Assembly: GCF_003075435.1 (NCBI RefSeq)
Contig: NZ_QCZJ01000022.1
Coordinates: 1 to 64,000, forward strand
Reading direction: 5' to 3'
Source: Terrimonas sp.
GTDB lineage: Bacteria; Bacteroidota; Bacteroidia; Chitinophagales; Chitinophagaceae
Length of the DNA: 64,000 nt
Shown here: positions 58,580 through 64,000 of the stretch, one piece after another
How the letters are laid out: every line of letters begins with the position of its first letter
How positions within the stretch are numbered: position 1 is the stretch's first letter
Translations under genes and position numbers: made by a program
Notes under the pieces: model-generated
Database searches by the model: none
Told to the model about the DNA's origin: nothing
Seen by the model: the letters and a program-made list of their open reading frames with translations, nothing else

Positions 58580-59467
58580 ATGAAACACGCATATGTTTTT
58601 CCGGGACAGGGCTCACAATTTTCAGGAATGGGGAAAGAATTGTATGAGAACAATGCGACTGCAAAGGAATTGTTTGAGCAGGCTAACAGCATAGCAGGTT
58701 TTCGCATTTCAGATATTATGTTCACCGGCTCTGATGAAGATCTGAAACAGACAAAAGTTACGCAGCCAGCTATATTTCTTCATTCTGTTATTTTATATAA
58801 AACATTGGCTGATGCAAAACCGGGTATGGTTGCCGGTCATTCTTTGGGTGAATTTTCCGCACTCGTAGCTAATGGTGTTTTATCATTTGAAGATGGATTA
58901 AAGCTGGTTATTGTAAGAGCTAATGCCATGCAGAAAGCATGTGAAATAAATCCATCATCAATGGCAGCGGTATTGGCATTGGATGATGCTAAGGTAGAAG
59001 AAGTATGTACCGCTATACAAAATGAAACAGGTGAAATTGTTGTGCCGGCCAACTATAACTGTCCCGGTCAACTAGTGATAAGCGGTTCAACCAAAGGTAT
59101 AGAAATCGCCATTCAGCGCATGAAAGAAGCAGGAGCAAAAAGAGCATTAGCATTACCTGTGGGTGGCGCTTTTCATTCTCCATTGATGGAACCTGCAAAA
59201 GCAGAGCTGGCTGATGCAGTTAATGCAACAACTTTCAATGCGTCAGCCTGCCCGGTATATCAAAACTTTACTGCATCGCCTGTAACAGATCCTGATACTA
59301 TTAAAAAGAATATTATTGATCAGCTAACCGGTGCTGTCCGGTGGACACAAAGCGTGCAAAAGATGATAGCTGACGGTGCTGCAACTTTTACTGAAGTTGG
59401 TCCTGGTAAAGTATTACAGGGACTGATTGCGAAGATTGATAAGGGTGTGACGGCTGCGGGGGTATAA
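58580..59467 (+). CDS. fabD: Malonyl-CoA:ACP transacylase
   Basis: 295 residues from the ATG at 58580. FPGQGSQ (7-13), the nucleophile Ser88 in GHSLGEF, and the catalytic His in GGAFHSPLM (about 195) define FabD. It loads malonyl groups on ACP for fatty-acid synthesis. Alone, without other fab genes beside it. Confidence 0.95.
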   Translation: MKHAYVFPGQGSQFSGMGKELYENNATAKELFEQANSIAGFRISDIMFTGSDEDLKQTKVTQPAIFLHSVILYKTLADAKPGMVAGHSLGEFSALVANGVLSFEDGLKLVIVRANAMQKACEINPSSMAAVLALDDAKVEEVCTAIQNETGEIVVPANYNCPGQLVISGSTKGIEIAIQRMKEAGAKRALALPVGGAFHSPLMEPAKAELADAVNATTFNASACPVYQNFTASPVTDPDTIKKNIIDQLTGAVRWTQSVQKMIADGAATFTEVGPGKVLQGLIAKIDKGVTAAGV

Positions 59468-60004
59468 TCATTAAATCAATCAAAATCCCGGGTATTTGCT
59501 TAAAGAAATTGTGTTTATCTGCTGGGATTTTATTTAGAAAATGCAGCATGCTTTTTAAAGTTTAATCAACCTGAAATAGCTGATATCTAAGGGTATCCCC
59601 TGACGGGGCAAATTAAAATAATCGATTTTCTTTCTTCAAACAGGTAGCCGCTACGCGGCAGAATATACCAGGAGCTATTACCATTATTAAGTATCGGGAA
59701 AAGATGTGATCCTGGAATTTAAAATGTACGATTGGAGATTTAAAAATGCTTAATTCATATAGAGAATGTCATCATCTTCTGTACCATCGGCACAACCCCT
59801 TTGTAGAAGATATTGACATATTTTCACAAATGCCCCATAAGGGCTACCCTTTGTATCTTTGTATCCCGAAAGAGAGTCTACCTATGATGCAATAGGCAGA
59901 TGGGTTGTATTAGTTGCAAGAGGCATCCCCTGTATGGCACAGGAAGCAAGCCTATTATTGCCGCCCAATTTGAGGATAAAATTCATAATCTAAACTCCCT
60001 GCTT
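59468..60004. repeat. Gap with array of short hairpin repeats
   Basis: 537 bp, no gene. Several hairpin units are visible. On the minus strand: a GCCGC-GCGGC hairpin (59647-59659) followed by CTACCTGTTTGAAGAAA, and a CCCC-GGGG hairpin (59597-59608). On the plus strand: GTACC...GGCAC (59781-59793) followed by CCCCTTTGTAGAAG, and GCCC-GGGC (59832-59844) followed by TACCCTTTGTATC. The units share a CC(T)TTTG(T)AGAA tail, so this is a repeat family with different stems. Confidence 0.55.
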
Positions 60005-61147
60005 CTATAATATTTTGCCCAATACCTCCACCACATAATCCTGCCGTATCCTCTCCTGCTCCAGTCTTCCGTTATGATATTTCAGGATATTAAAAGCAGC
60101 CTGTTCTTCCCTGGTGAGATGCTCCAATGAAATTGTTTTGTATACAGCATCCTGCTTACCCATTTCACCCGCATGTTGCAGTAAGGTTGCTTCATCCATA
60201 AACACACTTTGCAGGTTATCAGGATAATAGCCATGCATCGCATTCAGCATTTTATATCCCTCCTCATCAAGATCGCCCCAATAAAACAATTTAGCTTTCG
60301 CCAAAAGAGGAACGTCCTTCAGGCTATGCGTTGCCTTACCCTTGCTGAAAACAGCTATCGCATTTTTTCTTTCCGGGATCAAATAGAGGTTGGTTTCATT
60401 CTCCACCAGCCACACTTCTTTAATATCCCAACTGATCTGCTTCAACCAGTCAACCGTTACACCCGTAACTTCCATGCCATGCATGAGCTGCGCTGCTATT
60501 GTTTTATCAAGCCAACGGATCGGGTACAGGTACGGCTTTTGTTTTAACGACAGCAGCTCATCAAGCGTAATTGCACTCGCGGCATATTTTTCCGGGGCTA
60601 TGGTTTTCAAAAGTGAAAACAGGATTGGTCGGTAAGTTTCAATAAACTTGGTATGAACGGGCACCGGGATGCTGCGTATATAATGACCGCTCACATCATG
60701 CACCAGCAAATGGTCAATCACCTTTTGCAGGTCGTTCCACACTGTTTTTAAATCCAATACCCGCTCGGGTTTTTCAATTAAGAAAGATTGAACAGCCGGC
60801 TGCCAGTTCAGTAAAATTTGTAACTGCTGTTTGAAAGCATCAGCTTCCGCTTCTTTTTTTAACAGGTGCAGGTAATCTTCTTCCGTGTCAACGATAATTG
60901 TAGACACCCATTTTTGTTTGCCGAGCTTTTTGCTGCTCCAGTCTTCCCATTCTATTGTCCAGCCCCTGCGTTGCGCTGTCTTTTCATTTTGCCGGAACAA
61001 TGCGATGGCTCCATGGAGATCAACCGTTGTCGCGGGTTTGTTTTTTTCACCCCGAAGCACTACAATGCTAAAAGGTTTGCCTGAAATAATATCCCGCAGG
61101 TATCCCTTATAGTATCTTACAAGTTGTTGCTGATAGGCTTCGATCAT
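60005..61147 (-). CDS. jetD: Wadjet system nuclease subunit JetD (DUF3322/DUF2220)
   Basis: 380 residues. The N-terminal part is DUF3322-like, the C-terminal part is the DUF2220/Toprim-like nuclease. The Toprim acidic set is present: Glu249 in WLVENETNLYLIP, and Asp292 and Asp294 in FYWGDLDEEGY. JetD cuts closed-circular plasmid DNA that the JetABC SMC complex has reeled in. It is the last gene of the cluster. It starts 40 bp after the RibD-C-like gene rather than next to jetC. Confidence 0.88.
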   Translation of the reverse strand: MIEAYQQQLVRYYKGYLRDIISGKPFSIVVLRGEKNKPATTVDLHGAIALFRQNEKTAQRRGWTIEWEDWSSKKLGKQKWVSTIIVDTEEDYLHLLKKEAEADAFKQQLQILLNWQPAVQSFLIEKPERVLDLKTVWNDLQKVIDHLLVHDVSGHYIRSIPVPVHTKFIETYRPILFSLLKTIAPEKYAASAITLDELLSLKQKPYLYPIRWLDKTIAAQLMHGMEVTGVTVDWLKQISWDIKEVWLVENETNLYLIPERKNAIAVFSKGKATHSLKDVPLLAKAKLFYWGDLDEEGYKMLNAMHGYYPDNLQSVFMDEATLLQHAGEMGKQDAVYKTISLEHLTREEQAAFNILKYHNGRLEQERIRQDYVVEVLGKIL

Positions 61148-61187
61148 GGTATAATATTAGCAGTGCTGTTTCTTTTGATTTGGCCTT

Positions 61188-61727
61188 TTAATAGGATCGT
61201 TTCCGCCTGTAAAGCAGTTGTGCCAACCCGGTGTCAAACGATTTTGCGCTCACCAGCTCAAGCCATTGTTCGGGTCTGCCATCTTTAAAAAGCCTTGTTC
61301 CGTTACCAAGCAATACAGGAACGACCGAAATGATCATCTCGTCAATAAGATCATCTTTTAAAAGTTCGTTTATTATTTCCGCACCACCGTCACAATAAAT
61401 ATTTTTACCGTTTTTGCTTTTCAGTTGCCGGACCAATTCCGCAGGACTCCCGTTGTAGAAATTTGTTTTACCAACCTTCGGTCTTACGGTTCTTGTAATA
61501 ACATATACATCCCTCTCCCCGTTGTCGTAATGAGAGGAACCGATTTCTTTGAGCACCCAATCATAAGTTTTCCTGCCGAGAATGATAGTGTCAATGGTTG
61601 ATGTAAATGATGCATACCCATAATCCTCGCCTTCTTTTTCTACTGATTTCAAAAAGCCAAGATCATCATTCGGCTTGGCTATATATCCGTCCAGGCTTGT
61701 TGCTATGTAAATAGATAATATACGCAT
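61188..61727 (-). CDS. RibD-C/DHFR-fold reductase family protein
   Basis: 179 residues. IYIATSLDGYIAKPNDD at the start, ILGRKTYDWV, and the NADPH-binding IYCDGGAEIINELL (about 116-131) are typical of the dihydrofolate-reductase-like RibD C-terminal family, usually seen as stand-alone deaminase/reductase-like enzymes of unknown substrate. It lies between jetC and jetD, 40 bp upstream of jetD. Confidence 0.88.
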   Translation of the reverse strand: MRILSIYIATSLDGYIAKPNDDLGFLKSVEKEGEDYGYASFTSTIDTIILGRKTYDWVLKEIGSSHYDNGERDVYVITRTVRPKVGKTNFYNGSPAELVRQLKSKNGKNIYCDGGAEIINELLKDDLIDEMIISVVPVLLGNGTRLFKDGRPEQWLELVSAKSFDTGLAQLLYRRKRSY

Positions 61728-61904
61728 TGTGATATTGTGTTAAAGCATTGGCAAAGGCAGGGGGATTGTTCGTCTGCCGATACAAATGCTCATTAAAGAT
61801 AAATGTTCATTGGTCGTTCTAAACTGAATAGAAAATGTTCAGCCGATAACTGATGTTGATTAGCGATTTGTCACCGATTGAACTTCCGTCAGCCTTGCTT
61901 TTTG

Positions 61905-62630
61905 TCAATGCATTGTTGCTTGTGGTTTGTCCTGCAGACTTTTCCACTCGTGTTCTACTCTTGTCATCAAAAGCGCATTGTCAAACTGCACAGAACCTTT
62001 GGGAAATATCTTTTCATCTTCATAGAAACTGGAATGAACATCCGTCACTTCAAGCGGTCGCACCTGCCATGTGTAAGCCTGCAACTTAAGTCCTTCATAT
62101 TTGTCTTTGTTCGGGGAGTAACCAACTGCCCCTCTCTCAAAAAAGTCAGAAACATTCTCCAATGTTCGAAAAATTGAGTTCGGGTCAAAGTGATTGGTCT
62201 CCTTAGCGTCTATGGAAATGCTTGTGCTGTCAGAACTGGTAAAGTCAATGTGGTAGTTGTCACCGCCTTCCTTCACGTTGAACTTAGCTAAATAATGTTT
62301 GCCAGGAAATATTCTGCCGCCTAATATTGTGTTCAGTCGTAAAGAAGTATCACGTCTTGGAATGTAAACCCCTTCTTTGGTATTGCCATCTTCGTCCCAC
62401 TCTACAGCAATGCGATGTGCTCCGTTTTCAGAGGAAACGCCGACAAAATCAGGAAGTCCTTTTAGTTTGATGTTTTTTAGTCTGATGAGGCAAATACCAA
62501 CAACAGCTTTGTCTTTATAAATTTTTGGTCTAAATGGCTCGGGAATGACTTTCCGTACAACGCCTGGGTCAGCCGTGAAGTTTATTAAAATGCGTCGATC
62601 AATGTAACCATGTATTGTCGGAAGTCTCAT
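61905..62630 (-). CDS. DUF2071 (YqjF-like) protein
   Basis: 241 residues matching DUF2071: RRILINFTADPGVVRKVIPEPFRPKIYKDKAVVGICLIRL, and HRIAVEWDEDG in the middle. A cytosolic protein without established function. It lies 123 bp after the jetC stop and 177 bp before the reductase start, inside the Wadjet cluster. Confidence 0.85.
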   Translation of the reverse strand: MRLPTIHGYIDRRILINFTADPGVVRKVIPEPFRPKIYKDKAVVGICLIRLKNIKLKGLPDFVGVSSENGAHRIAVEWDEDGNTKEGVYIPRRDTSLRLNTILGGRIFPGKHYLAKFNVKEGGDNYHIDFTSSDSTSISIDAKETNHFDPNSIFRTLENVSDFFERGAVGYSPNKDKYEGLKLQAYTWQVRPLEVTDVHSSFYEDEKIFPKGSVQFDNALLMTRVEHEWKSLQDKPQATMH

Positions 62631-62718
62631 AAGTTTACAGTCTTTTTACCATTGCAAGCAATGTAATTATTTGTTTTGTTAAATCGTGAATAAATATTCA
62701 CTAAACGCACTCGCCCCA

Positions 62719-62749
62719 AACCTGTAACCTGAAACTTGTAACCTGGAAC
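62719..62749. repeat. Short ACCTG-type tandem repeat
   Basis: The unit AACCTG(T/A/G)AAC recurs imperfectly (AACCTGTAACC, CTGAAACTTG, TAACCTGGAACC) just after the jetC stop. Similar low-complexity stretches occur in other gaps of this window. Probably non-functional. Confidence 0.4.
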
Positions 62750-62753
62750 CACT

Positions 62754-64000
62754 CTACTTTTTCATCTTCTTCAACAGTTCCTTGATCGTCATATTATACA
62801 TCACGCTATTCCTGTTATTTACCCTTTGCACCAAATGTACGTGCGCAATATAATCCTGCACGATCTGTATTTTATCGCTCGGCGTTACCACTAATAATTG
62901 CAGGTGTAGTTGCTTGCACAATTCCATCAGGTAAGTAGCTTTGTCCTCATCCTGGTTGCTGAAGCTTTCATCTACCGCAATAAAACGCAGGCTGCGACTG
63001 TTCTTTCCTTCCCGTGTAATTCCGAATTGATAAGCAATAGCGCTGCACAAAATGGTATAAGTCAACTGCGCTTTTTCACCGCCCGATAATTGCCCCATCT
63101 GGCGGTAAGTTTTTTTCAACTCATTGGTATTGCGGTATTTTTCATCCGCCCAAAACTCAAACCAGTTACGCACATCCATTACACGGGCGCGGTAGGTTTC
63201 ACTTTCATCTAAGCTGTCAATCAGCGGCTGCACCTTTTGACGGAAATGCAATGCTTTCTCCTCAAATTTACTTTGCTGCCAGTTCGCCGCCTGCGGCAAT
63301 GCATCTAATAATGCATTACGAAATGCTTTGATGGTAGCATCAGGCACAGAACGTTTGCCCAACTGTATATAAGTATCCGGCAGGCGATTAAAATTAATAG
63401 CGCTCAGCGAATAATTCAGCTTGTTGACGCTGTTGTTGATCTCCCGCTCCCATTTCTCCATCTCTTCATTCAATCCGCCTATTTTATAAGTAATAGTATC
63501 GTTGATGAAATTCTCAAAATCTCGGCGATACTTAGGCAGGTTCTCCGTGGTAAGCTTATCCAACCATTCTTTAAATTCCTCTGCATACGCCGCTTCATCC
63601 GGCAGGAACTGTACATCACTATACCAGTCAGGAAAACGTTGCAGTATGGCAGGCGACGGATTTTTGATCTGGCTGATGCTGCGGTTCAAATGCGTTTCTT
63701 CTTTATACAATTGTTGCTGCACCTGCTGCGCTTCCGAATCCAGTTTGTCTTTAAATACGCGATAAGTTTCATCAATCGTATCTAAGCTAACAGCGCCAAG
63801 CGCCACCGCGTGCTGCTGCTGAAACTGCAACAGCTCATCTTTGTTTTCTGTAGTAATGTGTTGCAGCAATACCTTGAGCGATTCCTTCTGCTGCTGCATT
63901 GCATTCACGCGGTTTTGCAATGTCGTTTTTTCACCGGTAGCGGTTTCCCATTTACGCTCTGCTGCTGTGCGTTGTTCCAATATCTGTTCAAGCTGCGAAG
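62754..64000 (-). CDS. jetC: Wadjet system SMC-like ATPase JetC, C-terminal part (partial)
   Basis: The frame stays open to the right edge, so the N-terminal ~2/3 of a ~1,100-residue protein lies outside. The visible 415 residues contain a long Gln/Glu-rich coiled coil, then the ABC head C-lobe: signature LSGGEKAQLTYT, Walker B plus D-loop in RFIAVDESFSNQDED, then LLVVTPSDKIQIV. This is the MukB/SbcC-like arrangement of JetC, the loop-extruding ATPase of Wadjet. jetA and jetB should lie beyond the window. No start codon belongs here. Confidence 0.87.
   Translation of the reverse strand, partial: SQLEQILEQRTAAERKWETATGEKTTLQNRVNAMQQQKESLKVLLQHITTENKDELLQFQQQHAVALGAVSLDTIDETYRVFKDKLDSEAQQVQQQLYKEETHLNRSISQIKNPSPAILQRFPDWYSDVQFLPDEAAYAEEFKEWLDKLTTENLPKYRRDFENFINDTITYKIGGLNEEMEKWEREINNSVNKLNYSLSAINFNRLPDTYIQLGKRSVPDATIKAFRNALLDALPQAANWQQSKFEEKALHFRQKVQPLIDSLDESETYRARVMDVRNWFEFWADEKYRNTNELKKTYRQMGQLSGGEKAQLTYTILCSAIAYQFGITREGKNSRSLRFIAVDESFSNQDEDKATYLMELCKQLHLQLLVVTPSDKIQIVQDYIAHVHLVQRVNNRNSVMYNMTIKELLKKMKK

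Follow-up and report, generated by a model that had tools for sequence, protein, structure and literature searches.

The last part of the 64,000-base stretch of Terrimonas sp. DNA analysed here (the window, which covers the first 64,000 bases of a contig 98,082 bases long) carries one end of a gene cluster that, judged by its gene content and sequence matches, is a complete Wadjet operon of type I (JetABCD, MksFEBG). In the part of the published work drawn on here, JetABC is described as a loop-extruding sensor and JetD as a nuclease (PMC10586767). The genes lie on one strand in the order jetA-jetB-jetC-DUF2071-RibD_C-jetD, and we consider it highly probable that the cluster is a full type I Wadjet carrying two passenger genes, which travel together with it within the genus, and that its branch of the system is one in which jetD is loosely tied to its partners. 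By analogy with the known system, JetABC would extrude loops of DNA and detect small circular molecules, which JetD would cut, and restriction of plasmids by the cluster can be expected on the same grounds. The genes of the cluster are as follows.

60005-61147, minus strand: jetD, 380 amino acids; type I Wadjet nuclease with a DUF3322 N-terminal region and a Toprim JetD_C domain.
61188-61727, minus strand: RibD_C gene (dihydrofolate-reductase-like), 179 amino acids; Pfam RibD_C; probable passenger.
61905-62630, minus strand: DUF2071 (COG2071) gene, 241 amino acids; Pfam DUF2071; probable passenger.
62754-64000, minus strand: C-terminal part of jetC inside the window; structural maintenance of chromosomes (SMC) ATPase; Pfam SbcC_Walker_B.
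Up to contig position 66134, minus strand: the full jetC gene, 1126 amino acids counted from the first ATG.
Contig 66106-66696, past the window end, minus strand (as jetC): jetB.
Contig 66705-68174, past the window end, minus strand (as jetC): jetA.

An earlier examination of the letters and translations alone (the sequence-only reading) had placed the open reading frames (ORFs) and their domains within the window, and both the frames and the Pfam matches agree with it. It had also proposed a look past position 64000 for jetA and jetB; both are present there, upstream of jetC, and match type I models, so that the full type I set is accounted for (the starts of jetA, jetB and jetC were taken by us as the first ATG). 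PADLOC assigned the window proteins as JetC1 and JetD1, the latter with an E value of 4.8e-89 to model PDLC00522, whilst JetC scored 1118.8 bits against PDLC00512 and covered model positions 4-1119 of 1123. Beyond the window, the kleisin JetA (DUF3375) matched the type I model PDLC00444 (E 5.3e-188) and the KITE protein JetB (DUF4194) matched PDLC00487 (E 1.6e-47). The JetC sequence contains the Walker A motif GANGSGKTT, the signature LSGGE and the Walker B motif VDES, and a 13-row JetC alignment showed no variation in LSGGE, in VDES or, Ala49 excepted, in the Walker A residues. The cluster is like type I Wadjet (JetABCD, also named MksFEBG or EptABCD) in its four subunits, its type I PADLOC models, its SMC motifs, a JetD Toprim domain with catalytic acids and the gene order A-B-C-...-D; it differs in the two unrelated genes that part jetC from jetD, and in a JetB N-terminus that is shorter than that of E. 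coli.

The nuclease of the window is predicted to be intact. The Toprim residues Glu249, Asp292 and Asp294, which had been picked out from the translation beforehand, are indeed present and are identical in all 21 of the aligned JetDs (13 from the same JetC branch and eight others). The protein matches solved MksG and JetD chains (8b7f, 7til and 8q72), and Glu249 corresponds to position 248 of chain 8q72, ‘JetD(E248A)’, going by the one-residue offset of the match. The ratio of non-synonymous to synonymous divergence (dN/dS) of JetD was 0.107-0.138 in five pairs within the window's genus and 0.094-0.128 in eight unsaturated pairs from ordinary operons; a ninth ordinary pair (L118/L121) gave 0.43, at a synonymous divergence (dS) of merely 0.019.

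The separation of jetC from jetD is unusual. The distance between the two genes was measured in 37 pairs: a sample of 294 genomes of the family, to which the window's own genome belongs, supplied 33, and a search of the genus added four (L082-L085). For 33 of the 37 pairs it fell between -26 and +33 bp, which bears out the expectation that these genes are usually adjacent. The remaining four pairs all belong to the window's genus and to the same Jet branch, with gaps of 1606, 764, 1611 and 1591 bp. It is the first of these that is found in the window, where the roughly 1.6 kb that had been noted measures 1606 bp and holds the DUF2071 and RibD-C-like genes in the same direction as their neighbours, the end of RibD_C lying, as reported, 40 bp from jetD. 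Strict adjacency is therefore absent here; clustering of the four genes on a single strand, which was used as the criterion for Wadjet, is present, and adjacency was treated as usual, not as defining. When 12 genomes of the genus were searched for this JetC, four carried it at 96-100% identity; RibD_C lies between jetC and jetD in all four clusters and DUF2071 in three, being missing in G028. The insertion is probably incidental as well as unusual. Other arrangements were also seen. A second, distant type I Jet operon (JetC ~30% identical) occurs in three genomes of the same genus, G239, G296 and G297 (L063, L084 and L085), and in it jetC and jetD overlap by 4 bp. In G109, a locus of the same Jet branch (L065 5434-7027) has two opposite-strand ORFs inserted between jetA and jetB.

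Comparison of the four cluster-bearing genomes indicates that the cluster spread horizontally as a unit between species. In five pairs of these genomes, rpoB shows a dS of 0.77-1.27, and rpoB is normally a slow gene at silent sites; the cluster genes show a dS of 0.05-0.54 in the same five pairs, which argues for transfer after the species had split. The DNA common to the window and G297 or G296 begins 20-30 bp inside the end of jetD and ends ~300-360 bp before the ATG of jetA. The sequence-only reading had proposed that a repeat-rich gap to the left of jetD marks a possible island edge. An edge at that side does have some substance, as the DNA shared with G296 and G297 breaks off no more than ~30 bp from the stop codon of jetD, but the repeats do not mark it, because their copies are dispersed through the genome. 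The two stretches concerned, both outside the Wadjet system and without an assigned strand, are these.

59583-59664: copy of a dispersed intergenic repeat.
59773-59852: a second copy of this repeat, or a second part of it.

When the flank was compared with its own genome, itself excluded, 11 of 12 matches fell in 59581-59667 or 59777-59850, and the whole flank gave 42 and 26 matches in two relatives, most of those listed lying in the same stretches; G296 and G297 have many copies. The repeat unit is ~75-80 bp long, and at several places it occurs as two parts ~160-190 bp apart.

Whether the two middle genes are passenger cargo or added components had been left as an alternative by the sequence-only reading, and passenger status is probably the better description. 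Relatives of RibD_C were sought in 98 genomes and those of DUF2071 in 244. Among the Jet loci retrieved beyond the window's genus, no RibD_C was found near jet genes, and the DUF2071 found near jet genes there was a single remote homolog (28% identity) ~3 kb from jetC (L051, recovered again as L185). The nearest RibD_C genes outside the clusters are 73-80% identical and occur at seven places in six genomes, all without this Jet branch, one of which (G239) has the distant JetC (30%). DUF2071 relatives of at least 60% identity were found at 12 places in 11 other genomes, three of them with internal stop codons. Six genomes possess both this JetABC branch and such a relative, and the two are on separate contigs in four (G006, G009, G180 and G015) and more than 300 kb apart in two (G119 and G237). 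Two unrelated single-gene passengers would have entered between jetC and jetD, probably RibD_C first and DUF2071 second, and would since have travelled with the cluster between species of the genus; the DUF2071 segment is the least diverged part of the cluster (dS 0.053-0.087), which fits its later arrival. Such an insertion may have been tolerated because jetD is just loosely tied to jetABC in this branch. The sequence-only reading had named two outcomes that would speak against it, namely that jetA and jetB are missing upstream, or that all close relatives have jetC next to jetD and the middle genes are peculiar to this one genome; jetA and jetB are in place, and the middle genes occur in other genomes too, yet within the loci searched are confined to the genus.

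Several observations weigh against a complete Wadjet with two mere passengers. Both middle genes are under selection (dN/dS 0.095-0.152 for RibD_C and 0.101-0.115 for DUF2071). They are co-directional with the operon, and RibD_C is retained in all four clusters, which makes a role, or co-transcription with jetD, possible. Location on separate contigs is no proof of a great distance between DUF2071 and the jet genes. With respect to the operon itself, JetB gives only a weak match to E. coli JetB (E 0.03, beginning at residue 20 against 59 in E. coli) and is shorter at its N-terminus, where the IFDR motif, which has been described as contacting JetD (PMC10586767), is not placeable on so weak a match; JetB is likewise short, at 188-199 amino acids, in most other Jet operons of the family Chitinophagaceae. 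It could be argued from the shared strand, the 40 bp between RibD_C and jetD, the presence of RibD_C in every cluster and the spread of the unit between species with the middle genes inside it that the DUF2071 and RibD_C proteins are added defence components in this genus, for example regulators or accessory enzymes. We regard this as very unlikely, given that the Jet loci fetched outside the genus yielded zero RibD_C and one remote DUF2071, that G028 does without DUF2071, and that close relatives of both genes are unlinked to jet genes, the 73-80% RibD_C relatives being in six genomes without this Jet branch and the DUF2071 relatives being unlinked in six genomes that possess it.

The cluster belongs to a branch of JetC in which jetD is optional. 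Within a JetC tree of 65 rows, the branch comprises 35 rows at least 52% identical to the window's JetC; the sample of 294 genomes contributed 33 of these and the search of the genus two. The tree was built quickly under a simple model, SH-aLRT was its sole measure of support, and long branches drew a warning from the tool. Left out of it were G023:C294 (stop in jetC) and the incomplete G218, in which a fragment of jetC overlaps jetD by 4 bp, and the incomplete JetCs of G128, G236 and G210 were not among the loci fetched. Across the 35 loci, 12 have jetD in the operon (the four clusters of the window's genus, with passengers, being among them), one (G119) has it ~75 kb away, and in 22 it is absent from the operon. 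Amongst the 22, five genomes (G253, G209, G270, G036 and G023) have the JetD of another Jet operon, which in G023 is in pieces, and 17 gave no JetD match anywhere in the genome at an E value of 0.001. The standalone jetD of G119 (L041 5165-6346; G119:C1 near 858 kb) is apparently intact, encodes a protein 62% identical to the window's JetD and has unrelated opposite-strand genes on both sides. Most genera cohere in the JetC tree; g7 does not, and g23 is split by the window's genus, which nests by JetC among its members G119, G237 and G277, whereas RpoB keeps those three together. JetC and RpoB distances correlate only weakly (Spearman 0.225 across 34 genomes, a value reached in 59 of 2000 permutations; 0.258 without the divergent G036, reached in 9 of 1000), and vertical ‘housekeeping’ inheritance of the branch is for that reason not claimed.

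Outside the branch, jetD is adjacent in 25 of the 28 decidable rows of the JetC tree (G177, G039 and G214 are without JetD, and G259 and G162 stand at contig ends). A search of 345 genomes of the class found 13 outside the family with a relative of JetC at 1e-60. JetD lies on the same contig in 11 of them, the other two being G385 and a contig-end fragment, G584; in two further genomes of the class, G543 and G639, JetD was matched but JetC was not at that threshold. In a scan of named genomes, which overlaps with the 294-genome sample and so is not independent of it, and in which JetD was sought in the locus only, 77 loci were recovered from genera including Chitinophaga, Niastella, Niabella, Longitalea, Puia and Pinibacter. 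A full adjacent JetD was present in 15; another 56 gave no match to JetD in the locus and have 1.5 kb or more of sequence past jetC (five of these have an incomplete or interrupted jetC); and contig ends left five undecided, L173 and L181 among them showing the start of a JetD. In L143 (Niabella sp. BIN26) just the last 31 residues of JetD are found, directly after jetC, and this tail is the trace of a jetD deletion.

These patterns favour the view that, in this branch, the nuclease gene has been repeatedly uncoupled from jetABC and exchanged, displaced or lost, the SMC motor being kept. On the 65-row tree, 11 changes are needed to explain where jetD is present or absent, and well-supported branches of this quick tree force at least 10. 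An ancestral JetD with repeated loss is the simpler reading, because all JetDs of the branch fall in a single clade (support 100/99) whose well-supported parts follow JetC, although its deep inner forks are weak. The change count carries no direction, and JetD might instead have been gained many times by a JetABC branch that originally had none. Separate movement of jetD lends this some weight: in L070/L071 and L065/L066 the silent sites of JetD are saturated whilst JetABC dS is 0.44-0.96, which points to exchange of jetD on its own. Fast evolution of JetD as the cause of this difference was rejected in part, since it is the silent sites of JetD that are saturated in these pairs and those of JetABC are not. 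Many gains in place of losses nevertheless seem to us very improbable, in view of the single JetD clade that follows JetC where supported, the linkage of jetD to most JetC relatives outside the branch, both in the family and beyond it, and the deletion remnant in L143. Direct signs of loss come from that remnant and from individual sites. L054, without jetD, and L066, with jetD, occupy the same site, with flanking genes in common on both sides, and L055 shares downstream genes with L070/L071.

Where jetD is gone, jetABC is nevertheless under strong purifying selection. JetC dN/dS was 0.020-0.049 in 15 pairs of loci without jetD (several with dS above 1, and one, L139/L149, including L139 with 767 bp after jetC), much like the 0.031-0.041 in seven branch pairs with jetD. 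A normal Smc was found in all 23 genomes tested of the 35, so JetABC is no replacement for Smc in those genomes. A replacement nuclease past the JetD-less jetC was also considered and set aside, as, apart from jetD and small sets of three or four, no gene is shared among the six ORFs that follow jetC in the loci compared. A tentative but serious possibility is that Wadjet of this branch is repeatedly becoming a nuclease-free, MksBEF-like SMC complex, and that stages of the process coexist within one family: these would run from tight overlap through separation by passengers (the window), displacement by ~75 kb and a remnant tail to complete loss, and JetABC would keep a selected function without JetD, beside the normal Smc. 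It might further be supposed that the window itself is a decaying Wadjet, in which jetD has been cut off from jetC, defence has ceased and jetABC acts as an MksBEF-like condensin. The 22 branch loci without an operon jetD, with their low JetC ratios, the distant jetD of G119 and the 31-residue tail of L143 would all suit such a course, but the JetD of this genus has intact catalytic residues and the dN/dS of ordinary operons, and is present in all four clusters, and we think it unlikely. The nuclease-free members of the Wadjet group, MksBEF and MukBEF, are resembled by many of the nearest JetABC relatives of the window, which are without JetD and have jetABC under purifying selection; the window differs from them in that an intact JetD is present.

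Wadjet relatives without JetD are already known. In the part of one survey that deals with the matter, several members of the group are without MksG/JetD, and operons are catalogued with and without it (PMC7617805); the present branch is a recent and recurrent example. An incomplete literature search found no paper on the loss of JetD in Chitinophagaceae, and none on Wadjet jetC in Bacteroidota. The passengers themselves are ordinary genes, and it is the surrounding branch that offers a natural series bearing on an open question, that of plasmid-killing versus DNA-handling SMC complexes. Closely similar JetABC sets with and without JetD occur at one site (L066 versus L054), which makes the function of a nuclease-free JetABC testable in close relatives.

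Some minor features remain to be described. No tRNA genes were found in the 20 kb around the cluster, and no RNA elements at Rfam gathering scores in 59400-64000; promoter and terminator scans were near chance (12 hits against a mean of 8.1, and 2 against 3.6, respectively). A further repeat lies immediately past jetC.

62718-62750, no strand: 14-bp tandem repeat, 2.4 copies.

Upstream of jetA, at contig 70665-71235 (L002 14665-15235), a putative ParD/ParE-like toxin-antitoxin pair was recognized by eye from the translations.

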